Positions 1 to 25,960 of a stretch of DNA of 36,463 nt are shown in pieces; the stretch's first letter is position 1, and every line of letters starts with the position of its first letter. The notes under the pieces were generated by a model that had not been told where the DNA came from, made no database searches, and saw only the letters and a list, made by a program, of their open reading frames with translations. This DNA is from a virus, in IMG/VR virus record IMGVR_UViG_3300021363_000015, positions 1 to 36,463 of that record; one strand, 5' to 3'. A program made the translations under genes and the position numbers.

Positions 1-132
1 AACCAAAAAATTCACCTGAGAATGGTATGAACCCTTATACATCGCAACAAGAAGACGGTTCGATGGATGATACGGTTTATAAAGCGGTAGCTAGGGCTAT
101 GGAAATGCAGAAAATGCAGGAACAAAAAGCCA
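1..132. repeat. Terminal direct repeat, left copy
   Basis: Bases 1-132 match bases 36332-36463 except at one position: base 6 is A here and 36337 is C. The last 126 bases are identical. The repeat lies inside one reading frame (scaffold), so it marks where a circular or circularly permuted molecule was opened, not a gene duplication. The mismatch changes a Gln codon (right copy) to Lys (left copy). An assembler overlap is the simplest cause; a true terminal redundancy is less likely at this length. Confidence 0.93.
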
Positions 133-560
133 AAGATCAAGAAAAGATGCAGCATGTATATAAAGCTCATGAGGATTTGAAAGACACTCTTGAAAAAGCA
201 TCAGATAAATATGAGGACTTTGACGATGTTGTTATGTCAAAAGATGCTCCTTATACAGATGCTATGCACAATGCAGCTTTGATGGTTCAAAATCCCGATG
301 ACACTCTATACCACCTTGGCAAAGATAAAGAAAAACTGAAGCGATTATCTGAACTCCACCCACTAGATCAAATGAAAGAAGTTATCAAGTTGTCTCAAGC
401 GTTGTCTATAGGGGATAACGGCAAACAAAGCAATTCAAGCAATGCCAAACCTCTAGGACAAGTTAAAAACAATCCGGTAACTCCTAACAATGTTAACGAA
501 GGAACATCTGTTGGCGAACTACGCAAACGGATGCGGGATGGCGGTAAGAGATGGGGTTAA
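1..560 (+). CDS. Scaffolding protein, C-terminal part (N-terminus at 36112)
   Basis: This is the continuation of the frame that opens at 36112; joined across the junction it gives a 259-residue protein. It is charged, low in hydrophobics and rich in Met, Gln, Lys and Glu, as expected of an internal scaffold that is lost from the procapsid. It ends in a basic segment (RKRMRDGGKRWG). P22 scaffold binds coat protein through a basic C-terminal helix-turn-helix, and this tail fits that role. Position between portal and coat protein is the P22 order. No sequence motif proves the function, so the call rests on gene order, size and composition. Confidence 0.75.
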   Translation, partial: PKNSPENGMNPYTSQQEDGSMDDTVYKAVARAMEMQKMQEQKAKDQEKMQHVYKAHEDLKDTLEKASDKYEDFDDVVMSKDAPYTDAMHNAALMVQNPDDTLYHLGKDKEKLKRLSELHPLDQMKEVIKLSQALSIGDNGKQSNSSNAKPLGQVKNNPVTPNNVNEGTSVGELRKRMRDGGKRWG

Positions 561-601
561 TCATTTCTTGCTAAAACATAAAATTATTGGAGTTTTTTAC
601 A

Positions 602-1767
602 ATGGCTAATCAATTTATTACTACGCAGTTAGTATCAAACACGGCATTGGCGATGTTCGCTAACAATGCTCCGTTTGTTATGACTGCTTCGCGCATCTAC
701 CAAGATGATTTCACCTCTTCTGGTTACAAAATAGGTGATACATTGCAGGTTCGTAGACAGAATAACTTTATTGTCGGTGATGGTGCTACAGCTACCCCGC
801 AAGACATTATCGAAACTGTTGAGAACGTTACTGTTGCGCATCAATATCACGCTTTGATCGTTTATTCATTCAACCAGCAATTCAAAATATTATTTCCCAA
901 ATGGAACGTGATATTAGTGCATCTGCTGAACAAGAGCTTTATTTCTTCACTGGCACAGCAGGAACTCCTATTAACAGCTATACAACTGTTGATTTGGCTG
1001 GCGCTAAGCTGATGGAACAATCTGTTAATATAAGCTCTGATGCTTACGTTGCCATGACTGTTCGCGATGGTTCTAGCTTAAAAGGCGCTCTATTGAACCA
1101 ATTCACGCCATTGCTTAACGAAGAAATCGTTCGCCAATCAGCTATTGGTCACTTGTCCTACTTTGACGTGTTCCAATCCCAAAACCTTGTACGACATATC
1201 GCGGGTGCTGGTCCAACCTTACATCCTGGTGATGCTCTGTTAGTCAATAATGCCGTGGGTTCTGGTAACATCATCGTTATGGATGGCGCAACGGCTTCTG
1301 TTGTTGGTTACTTCTTACCTGGTGATTTGATCTCTATTGCTGGAGTTCAAAGCGTTAACCCAATCTCAAGAGCGGGCACAGGTCAAGATATGCAGTTTGT
1401 TGTTACTGCTCCTGCTAACTCTGACGTCGGTGGTAACATCGTTGTTCAAGTCGCTCCAAGTATTATCAGCTCAACATCTTCACCTTTACAAAACGTTTCT
1501 AACCCTATTCCTAACAACGCAGTTGTGACCATGATCCCAAGCTATAACGTGAACGTTGCTTATCCTTCGAGAGCATTGGATATTGTGTGCCCACCATTGT
1601 ACAAGTTGCAAGTTCCTTACGCTTCTGTTGCGATTGACCCAGAAACTGGTTTGTCACTAGCTGTGACTCAAACCGGCGATATCTTGGGATATCAAAACTT
1701 TATGCGTTTAGATATATTGTGCGGCTTTAAATGGCATCCACAATATGCAACTAAACTTTTATCTTAA
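602..1767 (+). CDS. Major capsid (coat) protein, P22 gp5-like, with a frameshift near 880
   Basis: ATG at 602 follows a TTGGAG ribosome site. The first about 93 residues (MANQFITTQLV to YSFNQQ) are in one frame. The rest continues one base back (-1), as QNIISQMERDIS and on to the stop at 1767. Neither piece alone is a plausible coat protein; joined they give about 388 residues, a sensible size for this family (P22 gp5 is 430). The joint lies somewhere between about 841 and 900, most naturally near 881-883, where one missing base would restore the frame. No in-frame X XXY YYZ slippery heptamer is visible, so a sequence error or real mutation is likelier than programmed frameshifting. Scaffold lies upstream and small head genes downstream. 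Confidence 0.8.
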
Positions 1768-2949: not shown

Positions 2950-4969
2950 GTGGCTGTTGCTGATTACGACATTGTTGGCTCTTATAATAATCAGCGCTAT
3001 ACCCCTATAGATGCTGAAAGAACTATTAATATGTTCGAATATCTCGATGGTAGAGATAAGAAGCCCAAGACACTTATTCCAACCTCTGGATTAATCAACC
3101 AACATAAAGTATTTTTCAATTCATTTCTTGGTTTGCCTGCGTCAGGAGCATTCAGAGCTGAATTTACATTCAAAGATAGCACTTACTGTGTAATAGGAAC
3201 TGGAGTTTACAAACTAACTGGACCAACTCTTGTGGTTAGTTTTTTGGGTGATATAGGCGGTACTGGCGTTGGTTTTGTAGGTGTATCAGGTTATATTCGT
3301 GGATGGGACAAAGGGATGGATATATGACACTTTGGCATCGACTTTTGTTCAAATTACTGATCCTAACTTTCCTACTCGTCCTCTTGATGTTACTTACCTA
3401 GACGGATTTTTTGTCGTAGTTAATGGTTTAACCAACAATTTTCAGCTATCTGAGTTCAACCAAGGTTTGATCTGGGGTCCTGGATCAGATGTTGTAGCAT
3501 GGGCTAATGGATCTGCTAATTTAACTATCACAGGTATTCACACGGAATATCCTGTTAATACACGAGTTACTTTCAATACTCCAGGTGTTGTTCCAACTCC
3601 TTTGGTAGCTGGAACAACTTACTTTGTTGTGTCAGTCGTTATTGGCGTTAATACTGTTATTCAAGTTTCTGCTACGCTTGGCGGAACAGCTATTGTGATA
3701 ACCCAAGCTGGAGCTGGTACAACCACCATGAGCAATAATGGTGAATTACAACTAGGATCTATGACTAGTCACCCTGGAACGGTGGTAGGATGCAGGACGT
3801 TACATAGACGATTATTTTTGTTTAGTCAAAATTACATTGAAGTGTGGGAGAATGCTGGATTAGGGTCAACTCTACCCTTTAGGCGCACTAATTCATTGCT
3901 TATTGAGTATGGAACTCCATCAGTTGCTAGCATTCGTGTCGGATTTGATATGATGTTTTTCCTTTCTCAAGACAAGGACGGTCAAGGTTCTGTGATGATG
4001 ATCATGGGTGCTCAAGCTATTCCTGTGAGCATTAGATCATTAGATTTTGAATTATCACAGTTTGCATCTAATGACGCTGTAAGTGATGCAACTGGCATAT
4101 TAATTAAAGAGAATGGATTAATATTCTATCGATTGAATTTTACCAAAGCGAATAGAACCTTTGTGTATAATGTGAACATGTCTGACCCAGAGAAAGAATC
4201 TGAAAGAAGATGGCATGAAGAACAAAACATTCATGGTTCACGTCATCCAGCTCAAACTCATGCTTATATTAATGGAAATAATTACTACGGTGATTATTTA
4301 AACCCCATTTTGTACAAGGTTGATTCTAATGAAACAACCAATGCAGGGGAGGCAATTCCTAGGATTAGAATAGGAAAAGGAGTCGTTCCTGATGGTTACA
4401 ATCGCATAAGAGTAGACAGATTTCAGCTTGATCTACTTCAAGGTCAAGCATTAACTACATCGGTTGTAATACCGTTTGTAGCTACTGACGTGAACATAGG
4501 ATTTAATTATATAGAAATACCTGACACAAGCGAATTTGTATTAGGTTCCACAGCTATATTCTCAACATTGAATACCTTACCATCTCCTTTGATTGCTGGA
4601 ACTGTTTATTATATAATCATTATATCTCCAACAAAAATACAATTAGCTGATACTTATACACACGCTGCTCAAGGGGTATTTATAAACTTGACTACCACTG
4701 GAACAGCGCCTAATTCGGTTAATATAATAACTCCAGTTCCTTATAGCCCTACCGTATTTGTGTCCATATCAAAAGATGGTGGTCAAACTTATGGTAATAA
4801 ACTTCTAGCTCCAATGGGAAAGATAGGAGAAAGATCATTTAGGACAGTATTGAGAAAGTTAGGCACAATACCAAGAGGTCAGGCATTCGTGCCTAAAATA
4901 GAATTTTACAACCAAGTTCCATTCGTTCTAATGGGTGGAGCTTGGTATGCAGAAATAATGCCGGAGTAA
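2950..4969 (+). CDS. Packaged-DNA stabilisation protein, P22 gp10-like, with a frameshift near 3281-3327
   Basis: Translation probably starts at GTG 2950 after AAGGAA. One frame runs to a stop at 3325-3327. The continuation (YQVIFVDGTKGWIYD...) is one base forward (+1) and runs to 4969; that frame has a stop at 3278-3280, so the shift must lie after it. Together about 672 residues result, larger than P22 gp10 (472). Two inserted segments of about 60-80 residues share the pattern PTPLVAGTTYFVV / PSPLIAGTVYYIII followed by a beta-rich stretch, which accounts for much of the extra length. The N-terminus (ERTINMFEY, then LIPTSGL) and the end (GGAWYAEIMPE) fit the family. It would extend the tail below the gp4-like adaptor. 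The break is either a sequence error or a real mutation. Confidence 0.75.
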
Positions 4970-19865: not shown

Positions 19866-21035
19866 TCATCCTTTGACGCATAAAATTTGTTTAAGTGTAT
19901 ATAAAATGTCAACTAAGTCTTCTTGAGATTTCATAACTAAATCAATATCCTTGTAAGCCATGGGAGTCTCGTCAATCACATCTTCATCTTTTCTGCATTC
20001 AACCCCTTCAGTAGCTTTGATATGATCTTCAATAGTAAATAGTTTTTTGGCTTTGTTTCTGCTCATTGATCGACCAGCCCCATGAGAACAAGAACAAAAT
20101 GATTCAAGGTTTCCTTTTCCTTTAACAATATAACTTCTAGTACCCATTGATCCAGGAATGATTCCTAACTGTCCTTCCCTTGCAGAAACAGCGCCTTTTC
20201 GGGTTACCCATATGTTTTTATCAAAATGATTTTCTATTTGTGTAAAGTTATGATGACAATCAACTCTCATTTCGACTAAATGATCATATCGCTTATCTTT
20301 ACCATATACATGGTGTGAAACATCTTTTAAAACACGAAGCATCATTTCATTTCTATTTTCTTTTGCATAATCCTGACACCACAATAAATCTGCAATATAA
20401 GACTTAAATTCTTTTGTATTTTGAACTAAATAAGCTAAATCAGGGTCTGGCAAAGATATAAAATATTCTTTCATTAATCCTTTAGCTGTACCAATATGTT
20501 TTTCAGCACTTGTTTTACCTATATTCCTACTTCCACTATGCAAAACAATCCATGCATCATTATTTTGATCAGAGCATATTTCAATAAAATGATTTCCTCC
20601 TCCTAACGTTCCTAATTGAAGATAAGTCTTTTCATTAACTGGCGTTCCATCTGCATAAGTTGATTTAATAGATGACCACATACGTTTAGTTAATTCTTCA
20701 TTTGAATTGAATCCCACAGGAACAGATCGCTCTATAGATGATCTAAGTTTGACTAATGAATCACCAAGTTCATCAACCTTAAATTTAAATTTTACTGCGC
20801 ACATACCACAACCAATATCTACACCAACAGCAGCAGGAATAATAGCACCTTGGGTCGCAATAACGCTTCCTACTGTCGCTCCCATTCCCCAATGTACGTC
20901 AGGCATAACAGCTATGTGTTTAAACATAAATGGCATTTCAGATAGATTCATTAATTGCTTTACTGCTTCATCTTCAATTGATACATGATCAACCCATGCT
21001 TTAATAGGTACATTTTTACCTTCATAAATTTTCAT
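19866..21035 (-). CDS. rtcB: RtcB RNA 3'-phosphate / tRNA ligase
   Basis: The 389-residue protein carries the full RtcB signature: DVHWG (46-50), GVDIGCGM with metal Cys76 (71-78), GGGNHF with His149, HSGSRNIG with His166, HHNF with His261/262, GSMGTRSY (295-302) and SHGAGR with the catalytic His318. These match the Mn-binding and guanylylated histidine residues of E. coli RtcB. It uses GTP to join 2',3'-cyclic phosphate ends to 5'-OH ends, the ends left by many anticodon nucleases. In a phage the likely job is repair of tRNAs cut by host defence. It is transcribed alone with a small gene, away from the structural operon, from a divergent region with a 26-base inverted repeat. Confidence 0.95.
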   Translation of the reverse strand: MKIYEGKNVPIKAWVDHVSIEDEAVKQLMNLSEMPFMFKHIAVMPDVHWGMGATVGSVIATQGAIIPAAVGVDIGCGMCAVKFKFKVDELGDSLVKLRSSIERSVPVGFNSNEELTKRMWSSIKSTYADGTPVNEKTYLQLGTLGGGNHFIEICSDQNNDAWIVLHSGSRNIGKTSAEKHIGTAKGLMKEYFISLPDPDLAYLVQNTKEFKSYIADLLWCQDYAKENRNEMMLRVLKDVSHHVYGKDKRYDHLVEMRVDCHHNFTQIENHFDKNIWVTRKGAVSAREGQLGIIPGSMGTRSYIVKGKGNLESFCSCSHGAGRSMSRNKAKKLFTIEDHIKATEGVECRKDEDVIDETPMAYKDIDLVMKSQEDLVDILYTLKQILCVKG

Positions 21036-24175: not shown

Positions 24176-24447
24176 TGTCTTATACATGTAAACATAATAT
24201 TGCATGTCTTCCATTTGTAGAATGTGTAATATGTTGGTCGGAAGAGGAAAATAAAATGGCAAATTGTATAGAAGCGGATAATGAAATAAAGAATGAATCT
24301 GATAGATTGAATGTTATGTTTCTGATTCGTCTGTTGGAAAAAAAGATAGAAGAAATTCATGATCGTATTTTCAACATGGAACAAGATATAAATAATATAT
24401 ACTGCGAAAAATGCCATCCAAAGTTTGATGATAATGGCATTTTGTGA
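24175..24447 (+). CDS. Cysteine-rich coiled-coil protein
   Basis: The 90-residue product has an N-terminal Cys/His cluster (CKHNIACLPFVECVIC). A heptad-like helix follows (VMFLIRLLEKKIEEIHDRIFNMEQDI), and a second CxxCH near the end (CEKCHP). The two Cys clusters could pair in zinc binding. The last codons contain the TGGCATTTTG element and the -35 and spacer of the promoter at 24425. Confidence 0.65.
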   Translation: MSYTCKHNIACLPFVECVICWSEEENKMANCIEADNEIKNESDRLNVMFLIRLLEKKIEEIHDRIFNMEQDINNIYCEKCHPKFDDNGIL

Positions 24448-24453
24448 TATATT
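24425..24453 (+). promoter_or_regulatory. Promoter of the RNA island, with TGGCAT-type element
   Basis: -35 TTGATG (24425-24430), 17-base spacer, -10 TATATT (24448-24453). The spacer holds AATGGCATTTTG, shared with the lysis promoter at 25007. Transcription would begin near 24460, exactly at the 5' arm of the first structured element. Confidence 0.6.
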
Positions 24454-24458
24454 GTTAT

Positions 24459-24563
24459 TGCCCTATTGTACTGATACCTGTCGGCTATATTATATCCATG
24501 CCGTAAGTGCTCGCGAGGTAACCGGAGGAGTGAGGCCGATCTCGAGTTGAGGGAACTAGGGCA
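24459..24563 (+). ncRNA. Structured RNA element at a transcript 5' end
   Basis: TGCCCTA (24459-24465) and TAGGGCA (24557-24563) can pair as a 7-bp closing helix. Inside, TCGGC (24481-24485) pairs with GCCGA (24535-24539), and CTCGCGAG is self-complementary. The segment is far richer in G and C than its surroundings. It begins at the predicted start site of the promoter at 24425. It is not a recognised tRNA, riboswitch or hammerhead. A promoter-proximal antitermination RNA (as in HK022 put) or a stable small RNA is possible. Confidence 0.5.
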
Positions 24564-24579
24564 CTAATTAGGAGTTTGT

Positions 24580-24732
24580 ATGACGCCAGAACAATTTGTA
24601 TTTTGGATAAGCGGTTATTTCGCACATAATAACATGGAAAATTATACTCATGTTGTTGATCAAGTTAGAGATGTTTTAAAACAAGTTAAATTAGATAGGA
24701 ATCAATTTGTTGTTTTTGAGACAACAGAATAG
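24580..24732 (+). CDS. Small phage protein (MTPEQF type)
   Basis: TAGGAG lies 7 bases upstream of ATG 24580. The 50-residue product starts MTPEQFVFWISGYF, an opening I recognise from many small phage proteins of unknown function (usually MTPEQFxxWLxGFxE). It sits inside the RNA island. Its TAG stop is followed in the same frame, one codon later, by the ATG of the next short frame. Confidence 0.65.
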   Translation: MTPEQFVFWISGYFAHNNMENYTHVVDQVRDVLKQVKLDRNQFVVFETTE

Positions 24733-24739
24733 TTTATGG
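24731..24739 (+). repeat. AGTTTATGG leader, copy 1
   Basis: AGTTTATGG occurs at 24731, 24808 and 24926, each time at the 5' edge of a foldable element; a variant (CTTATGGC) sits at 25013. Spacing is 77 and 118 bases. Confidence 0.7.
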
Positions 24740-24864
24740 ACACAGACAACGTGCAAGACGATCGCTTGCTATGGTTCCATACCCTAGATGCCGGTTCTGT
24801 GTCCGCCAGTTTATGGCCTTACGTGATGTTGATCCTAGGAGCGTGTGCGCGTCTTTTAGGTTAA
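24736..24864 (+). CDS. Possible 42-residue peptide overlapping RNA elements
   Basis: ATG 24736 opens MDTDNVQDDRLLWFHTLDAG... and ends in a hydrophobic stretch (LWPYVMLILGACARLLG) at TAA 24862-24864. It is in frame with the preceding gene across a single TAG. There is no good ribosome site, and the DNA also folds well as RNA, so coding is uncertain. A second short frame (24813-24905, 30 residues) overlaps it out of phase. Confidence 0.3.
   Translation: MDTDNVQDDRLLWFHTLDAGSVSASLWPYVMLILGACARLLG
24738..24808 (+). ncRNA. Foldable element A (closing helix GGACACAGA/TCTGTGTCC)
   Basis: Arms GGACACAGA (24738-24746) and TCTGTGTCC (24796-24804) give a 9-bp helix. Inside, GCAAG-7 bases-CTTGC forms an anticodon-arm-sized hairpin and TATGGTTCCATA another. 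G then CCA follow the closing helix, as in tRNAs, but no T-arm is present. Described as tRNA-like in outline only. Confidence 0.4.
24808..24816 (+). repeat. AGTTTATGG leader, copy 2
   Basis: Second copy of the nine-base leader; it directly follows the CCA of element A and opens element B. Confidence 0.7.
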
Positions 24865-24926
24865 TCAGTGATAACGCGCCCAATATGGTAGTAGGAGCCA
24901 AATAGACCTACATTCACAGGCCACCA
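24815..24926 (+). ncRNA. Foldable element B (closing helix GGCCT/AGGCC)
   Basis: GGCCT (24815-24819) pairs with AGGCC (24918-24922), with GTGA/TCAC continuing inward after a small internal loop. Hairpins GCGCGT/ACGCGC (6 bp) and GTAGG/CCTAC (5 bp) lie inside. A then CCA follow the closing arm. GC-rich for this genome. No tRNA T-arm. Could instead be partly coding. Confidence 0.4.
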
Positions 24927-24934
24927 GTTTATGG
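24926..24934 (+). repeat. AGTTTATGG leader, copy 3
   Basis: Third copy of the nine-base leader, at the 5' end of the tRNA-like gene and directly after the CCA of element B. Confidence 0.7.
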
Positions 24935-25011
24935 CAATCTTGGTCAAGTGGAAAGATAGTAGCTCTAAATGCATTTAACTACAGACACAGGTTCGATTCC
25001 TGTAGATTGCC
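24934..25011 (+). tRNA. tRNA-like gene with an enlarged anticodon loop
   Basis: Acceptor GCAATCT (24934-24940) pairs perfectly with AGATTGC (25004-25010). The T-arm is canonical: ACAGG TTCGATT CCTGT (24987-25003). A short D-arm GTC/GAT encloses a loop with GG (AAGTGGAAA). The anticodon stem is GTAG/CTAC (24959-24962, 24979-24982), but 16 bases lie between them instead of about 9. A canonical loop (C, U33, CUA, A37 ... A38) appears if about 9 bases (24969-24977) form an intron at the usual 37/38 position. That would make it an amber (CUA) suppressor. No CCA is encoded. It may instead be a degenerate tRNA or decoy. Confidence 0.6.
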
Positions 25012-25035
25012 TCTTATGGCATTTTGTTATATAAT
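25007..25035 (+). promoter_or_regulatory. Lysis promoter with TGGCAT-type element
   Basis: -35 TTGCCT (25007-25012, formed by the 3' end of the tRNA-like gene), 17-base spacer containing TATGGCATTTTG, and perfect -10 TATAAT (25030-25035). The expected start is about 24 bases ahead of the lysozyme ATG. Confidence 0.68.
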
Positions 25036-25498: not shown

Positions 25499-25960
25499 AT
25501 GTCCATTTATTCTGCTTTAGTTCCAATAATCTCGAAAGTTTCACCATTGTTAGGTTCTGCGTTAGGCGGTCCTGCCGGTGCTTTGGTGGGTTCTTTGATT
25601 TCTAGTACGCTAGGAGTTGATATGTCCAAACCTGAAGATTTATTGAACAAACTAAGTGATCCCTCTGCATTAGATAAGCTTAAAGAGCTTGAGCTTCAAT
25701 TAAAAGACCTACAGGACGCTAGAATCGAAGCATCGAAAGATACAGGAGCATTGAGATTTGTACGTCCTGCGCTTGCGTTGTTCGCTATGCTGGCTATATT
25801 CGCAGATGTTCTGTTGATTAACTATGTGGAAGACTACGTGGTTAACCAGATATTGATAGTCATGCTTGTAAGTCTTGTATGGGATGTAAGGCAGATATAT
25901 AAGTTTTACTTTGGAAGTGGGGAGGAAGTTCCTAGCTTCCTCCTGAAAGACAAACGTTAG
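25499..25960 (+). CDS. Holin, 3TM family
   Basis: Starts one base after the lysozyme stop with AGGAG upstream. The 153-residue protein has a Gly/Ala/Ser hydrophobic N-terminal segment (residues 3-40), a charged amphipathic middle (LNKLSDPSALDKLKELELQLKDLQDARIEASKDTGALRF is its Lys/Glu-rich core in part), and two membrane spans (RPALALFAMLAIFADVLLI; NQILIVMLVSLVWDV). This is the layout of the 3TM phage holins (DUF3154). It would permeabilise the inner membrane for the lysozyme. No spanin pair was found nearby. Confidence 0.8.
   Translation: MSIYSALVPIISKVSPLLGSALGGPAGALVGSLISSTLGVDMSKPEDLLNKLSDPSALDKLKELELQLKDLQDARIEASKDTGALRFVRPALALFAMLAIFADVLLINYVEDYVVNQILIVMLVSLVWDVRQIYKFYFGSGEEVPSFLLKDKR
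25921..25943. terminator. Hairpin at the 3' end of the holin gene
   Basis: GGAGGAAG (25921-25928) and CTTCCTCC (25936-25943) form a perfect 8-bp stem with a 7-base loop, inside the last codons of holin and near the 3' end of the converging leftward operon. No U-tract follows on either strand, so it may pause or protect transcript ends rather than terminate by itself. Confidence 0.45.

Follow-up and report, generated by a model that had tools for sequence, protein, structure and literature searches.

The window, a 36,463-base virus contig from IMG/VR, contains a tRNA-like RNA, element D, in which a conserved hairpin occupies the position of the anticodon arm. We propose that D is probably a small structured RNA that is released from a polycistronic array transcript, matured in the manner of a tRNA, and does not decode. 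Comparative sequence analysis establishes its predicted fold, the conservation of that fold in three phages, and its place in an array of units with tRNA-like ends. The contig also encodes a P22-type portal, a terminase, RtcB, and an endolysin, and its source is an uncultured virus of bacteria. A megablast search with 24 kb of the window against 50,697 phage records returned no close cultured relative, and the best terminase relatives are less than 40% identical to the window's terminase; uncultured viral contigs include closer relatives.

Element D and its relatives

At positions 24934-25011 of the plus strand, the Rfam tRNA model RF00005 scores 46.4 bits, above its gathering score of 29. The initial annotation had placed a tRNA-like gene at these coordinates, with a canonical acceptor and T arm and 16 bases between the two halves of the anticodon stem. 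Both arms are indeed perfect, and GTAG (24959-24962) and CTAC (24979-24982) are separated by 16 bases. The end at 25011 also holds. The acceptor is 8 bp long, however, and because G24933 pairs with C25011, we define element D as 24933-25011. Its parts are as follows.

24933-25011, plus strand: tRNA-like RNA D, with 8-bp acceptor, 3-bp D stem, extended anticodon arm, and canonical T arm; RF00005 match of 46.4 bits, three-member family
24933-24940, plus strand: acceptor 5' strand GGCAATCT, pairing with 25004-25011
24943-24957, plus strand: D arm, stem GUC/GAU, loop with A14 G15 and G18 G19; stem present in 3/3 members, one compensatory pair
24959-24982, plus strand: extended arm at the anticodon position, found by unaided RNAalifold on two sequences; five compensatory pairs in its two helices across three sequences
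24987-25003, plus strand: T arm ACAGG-TTCGATT-CCTGT, from the RF00005 match; four compensatory pairs
25004-25011, plus strand: acceptor 3' strand AGATTGCC, from sequence; CCA not encoded in the window copy

The 16 bases do not form a free anticodon loop. Within the extended arm, the 4-bp outer stem GUAG/CUAC (24959-24962 with 24979-24982) leads through a CUC/A internal loop to a 4-bp inner stem, UAAA/UUUA (24966-24969 with 24974-24977), which closes on the palindromic tetraloop UGCA at 24970-24973, and this pairing is kept in two relatives. D shares with RF00005 the acceptor, D arm, T arm, variable loop, and canonical core, and it retains the D/T elbow, G15-C48, and G18G19 with the T loop. It differs in the anticodon arm, where a hairpin of 4+4 bp with an internal loop and tetraloop replaces the 5-bp stem and 7-nt loop with U33, and where the RF00005 match includes only four outer stem pairs. 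Ordinary tRNAs of the same arrays have normal anticodon arms.

We scanned 2.9 million viral contigs for the D acceptor pattern combined with a canonical T arm, which yielded one further contig, L061. Its 81-nt RNA (776-856, minus strand) aligns with D from end to end and encodes ACCA. Given the two sequences and no supplied structure, RNAalifold returned a cloverleaf with the extended arm and a UGCA tetraloop. Eight of the 24 pairs are changed on both sides, one is changed on one side, and none is broken. A model built from D and L061 (R2) identified a third member, L054:4532-4609 (minus strand), at 47.8 bits (E = 5e-11). This score is close to the 44.7 bits of an ordinary tRNA-Trp under the same model, and the putative membership rests on anatomy rather than score: the L054 arm has an outer stem UUGG/CCAA, keeps CUC, and continues with an inner stem UAGU/ACUA and a CAUG tetraloop. 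Its T loop is non-canonical, with 6 nt.

Across the three known members, two of which lie on 6-kb fragments, all 72 pair cells are standard, and 11 of 24 pairs are compensatory, five of them in the extended arm. Compensatory change occurs in all five helices without a broken pair, and none of 500 shuffles was as good as the three-member pairing. Since the three members keep the fold by compensatory change, the oversized loop of the initial annotation is, on this comparative evidence, a conserved hairpin. Apart from the acceptor, no part of D is better kept than the extended arm with its CUC internal loop; the inner-stem sequence varies among members, and the tetraloops (UGCA, UGCA, and CAUG) are all palindromic. 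Taken alone, the window copy has a different minimum-energy fold, a single long hairpin; although best by energy in the window, it was rejected, as six of its pairs are lost in L061.

The queries tried against cultured phages and plasmids produced no homologues, only T-arm or chance matches. We judged a match in a bacterial genome (L045) to be chance, as it lacks the acceptor and a D-like arm, and likewise those at L063-L067, which lack the acceptor and T arm. No earlier description of a D-type RNA was found in the open-access papers covered.

The array and other RNAs with tRNA-like ends

D closes a row of structured RNAs (24460-25011) that have tRNA-like ends and form an array, its units separated by the spacer CCAGTTTATGG.

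24436-24451, plus strand: promoter-like repeat GGCATTTTGTGATATA, preceding the array; exact pattern only twice in the window
24460-24562, plus strand: possible element A, GCCCTA...TAGGGC followed by ACTA, from end complementarity and position
24580-24732, plus strand: small ORF located between A and B and preceded by AGGAG, 50 aa in translation
24738-24808, plus strand: element B, GGACACAG...CTGTGTCC-G-CCA; syntenic copy at L020:9466-9540, 81% identical
24806-24816, plus strand: spacer CCAGTTTATGG between B and C, an over-represented motif
24815-24926, plus strand: element C, GGCCT...AGGCC-A-CCA; four homologues in other phages, 12/27 predicted pairs compensatory
24924-24934, plus strand: spacer CCAGTTTATGG between C and D, an over-represented motif
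25018-25033, plus strand: second repeat copy GGCATTTTGTTATATA, following the array and preceding the endolysin gene

In 13 of the loci examined, the spacer motif CCAGTTTAYGG appears 20 times in total, compared with 0.0 expected occurrences in simulated sequence. The fold of element B is weakly supported, with one compensatory pair. Element A is only a suggestion as an array unit; it has no homologue, and the fold energy of 24463-24570 is no better than that of shuffles. The repeat GGCATTTTGTKATATA, a possible phage promoter, precedes both the array and the endolysin gene. Similar copies lie at the syntenic positions in L020, whose endolysin is 69% identical to that of the window, and in L004. 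Many elements begin with ATG, and we considered short protein-coding genes but rejected them, because several elements start with ACG or CTG (L031, L032, L033, L034, and L041), their length differences are not multiples of three, and their stems covary.

Arrays of this kind are present in dozens of uncultured phage contigs. They hold further covariation-supported RNA types that Rfam 15 does not match where scanned; for the window, L020, L010, and others, Rfam returned only tRNA and one int-alpA. Two of these types, E and F, were collected, and neither was found in cultured phages.

L012, L020, L026, L027, L030-L044, and L059, for example L042:154-269 (minus strand): type-E RNAs, no Rfam match in the loci scanned
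L027, L028, L034, L038, L040, and L046-L060, for example L048:9984-10029 (minus strand): type-F RNAs, GGCYGACGATAC...GGGAAAATAGGCCRCC

In L020, the site of D is occupied by a different tRNA-like RNA, of type E, whose acceptor is GGCAATCG/CGATTGCC. RNAs of this type combine an acceptor of 8 bp with a D-like arm (loop GACAGTGA) and a T arm (loop TGCAATT); the middle between these arms is hypervariable and ranges from 29 to 138 nt, with both ends kept. Twenty viral contig stretches matched the pattern of its 3' part. With the middle omitted, 14 of 18 pairs are compensatory among 21 sequences, a set partly collected by requiring pairing, which biases the percentage paired and leaves the pair types informative. 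L012, whose terminase is 74% identical to the window's, carries a type-E RNA with exactly the window acceptor GGCAATCT/AGATTGCC, and this acceptor agrees with the type-E consensus at seven of eight pairs. The type-E model R1 matched the window copy of D in the default pipeline with 25.8 bits (for 600 kb, E = 1e-4); it matched the D of L061 at 23.2 bits and no complete T4 tRNA. With filters off, the window copy reached only 9.8 bits, probably through a search width limited to the model's own length. Kinship of D with type E is thus suggested by these sequence matches.

Sixteen contig stretches carry type F. Its ends covary (GGCC/GGCC, GCCC/GGGC, and GGGC/GCCC), a symmetric internal loop GACGAUA/GAAAAUA adjoins the end helix, and the units occur in tandem with up to four copies (L053).

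Several other features accompany these RNAs. An HNH homing endonuclease-like ORF lies within a type-F-like unit at L061:~120-600 (minus strand), which starts with ATGGCCGACGAG and ends before AAAATAGGCCGCC, and a gene with long GGTTACGGTTCCGGT repeats directly precedes a type-F unit at L052:1530-1790 (plus strand). Another repeated unit with a tRNA-like end, GGGATGGAGGTGCAG...TTCCAGTGARAGGCTGGAWCATCCCRCC, is found in L028, L039, and L041. The type-E middle at L043:3056-3249 (plus strand) includes a partial tRNA-like sequence with a CATGC/GCATG stem around about 55 nt. On the plus strand, L020:9548-9635 and L059 (about 3060-3150) hold Gln(TTG)-like tRNAs that have about 25 additional nt separating the D arm from the anticodon arm and T loops TGTAAGC/TGAAAGC. 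More tRNA-like genes, with an intact acceptor, a mostly canonical T arm, and a reduced or abnormal middle, are located at L030 (minus strand, reverse complement 1164-1230), L049:3724-3798 (plus strand), L051:6167-6277 (minus strand), and L053:5921-6028 (minus strand).

Decoding, splicing, decay, and RtcB

The initial annotation had read the loop as carrying a 9-base insertion at the intron site. In a normal tRNA, the outer four anticodon-stem pairs enclose 9 bases, namely, pair 31-39 plus 7 loop bases, so the excess in D is 7 nt; the 9-nt figure presumes a 4-bp stem. On such a stem, removal of 24969-24977 would leave C-U-CUA-A-A, as suited to an intron-bearing CUA suppressor tRNA that is spliced and then sealed by RtcB. 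We find this the least credible reading of D. The stretch to be removed is half of the conserved inner helix, CUA occurs in the window copy only and is absent from L061 and L054, and none of the 10 possible 7-nt deletions produces a 5+7+5 anticodon arm with U33. TAG is not avoided either, terminating 3 of the 31 window ORFs checked, including ORF 25499-25960 just downstream of the array. Known bacterial tRNA introns are self-splicing and far longer.

It is also very improbable that D is a degenerate tRNA gene in the process of being lost. The arm is non-standard, and the RF00005 score of 46.4 is weaker than the 61.8 of an ordinary tRNA-Gln of L020, as decay would predict. The reading fails because the relatives keep the same arm by compensatory substitution, with every helix so altered in three phages and no pair broken; L061 and L054 carry the extended arm and not the seven-base loop expected had the window copy simply mutated. 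Hardly more probable is a working tRNA with an unusually long anticodon arm. The D/T core is tRNA-like, and ARAGORN predicts a tRNA-Leu(taa) gene at D, a call that we rejected, with three of five anticodon-stem pairs formed. ARAGORN finds nothing at L061, U33 is absent, and the tetraloop holds no conserved triplet. Because the defining anticodon arm was looked for and is absent, we class D as not a tRNA.

The RtcB gene reported in the initial annotation is present.

19866-21035, minus strand: predicted RtcB ligase gene, PF01139 at 410.9 bits; 3.9 kb from element D, on the opposite strand

RtcB had been put forward as the enzyme that reseals a cut decoy, and it would also seal the spliced suppressor. 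Of 38 records, only the window and that of L032 contain it, and so it is not a conserved partner; most of the 38 bear such RNAs, and a few are terminase-related. Fragments weaken the count, but about half of the records exceed 33 kb. We accordingly treat its proximity to the array as a probable coincidence. The bacterial Y RNA YrlA is a tRNA mimic encoded in rsr/rtcB operons. YrlA resembles D as a tRNA-like module in a non-coding RNA with RtcB nearby, whereas RtcB is not conserved with D-type arrays, and the Rfam model of YrlA gave no match in our Rfam scans.

Possible roles and known precedents

In the mechanism that we propose, the array would be transcribed from the repeat at 24436 with its units on one transcript, and D would be released by RNase P and 3' trimming. 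D keeps the features by which enzymes that handle tRNA recognize it, namely, the acceptor, the D/T elbow, G15-C48, and G18G19 together with the T loop, and the arm read by the ribosome is exchanged for the lengthened hairpin of outer stem, CUC internal loop, inner stem, and palindromic tetraloop. Its likeliest role, which we infer tentatively, is that of a bait or competitor that occupies host tRNA-acting enzymes while escaping use by the ribosome. Targets might be a tRNA-cutting or tRNA-modifying defense, or a processing or modification enzyme. The decoy for anticodon nucleases in the initial annotation is plausible in this wider form, which fits the anatomy of D; the part assigned to RtcB is not supported.

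Several points weigh against our explanation, among them the lack of CCA in the window copy, the lack of a canonical T loop in L054, and a family of just three members. Since the L054 T loop is non-canonical, tRNA-enzyme recognition may not be the conserved purpose of D, and this loss leans towards the main rival, a regulatory RNA for which tRNA ends would serve processing and stability and whose extended arm would work by loop-loop pairing or protein binding. Such an RNA is possible but somewhat less likely. It would account for the conservation of the arm and CUC loop and for type-E RNAs, which keep both ends around middles of very different length; against it, the inner-stem sequence is not conserved, and no target or regulated gene has been identified.

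The traditional interpretation of phage tRNA clusters is that they supplement codons or substitute for cut host tRNAs. Many phages, as described here, carry covariation-supported RNAs that seem to be processed like tRNAs and probably do not decode, beside ordinary tRNAs. A more speculative and rather doubtful extension of the bait reading is that uncultured phages carry arrays of unrelated, CCA-ended families of tRNA mimics (B, C, D, E, F, and more) as a dedicated arsenal against host tRNA-acting enzymes, with D as the member that swapped its anticodon arm for a fixed hairpin module. D-type RNAs are small enough for direct expression and testing.

Precedents for phage tRNAs in counter-defense appear in two papers (PMC10264068 and PMC11555353), where the tRNAs decode. 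One of them (van den Berg et al. 2023, PMC10264068) concerns phage tRNAs whose altered anticodon loops make them resistant to anticodon nucleases. Like D, these are phage tRNA genes altered in the anticodon arm, possibly against a tRNA-cutting defense; as presented there, they are proposed to decode in place of cut host tRNAs, whereas D has no decodable loop.

The closest known precedent of D is the pair of T4 stable RNAs C and D (species 1 and 2; NC_000866, 70908-71171), and we provisionally file D as a new variant of this kind and not as a tRNA. The T4 RNAs measure 119-139 nt, compared with 79 nt for D, and T4 is a cultured myovirus, whereas the carriers of D are uncultured phages. Record NC_000866 annotates no function for rnaC or rnaD, and D-type RNAs offer a comparative handle on why phages make such stable tRNA-like RNAs. 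In searches for homology to D or type E, model R1 matched neither T4 RNA, and R2 gave a weak tRNA-like match to rnaC (E = 0.017). The T4 RNAs are small, lie among phage tRNA genes, and partly resemble tRNAs: CCGGG-TTCGAAT-CCCGG forms a T arm close to the 3' end of rnaC, and the last bases of rnaD are GCACC(A). The position and predicted ends of D would fit a structured RNA inside a tRNA-type transcript.
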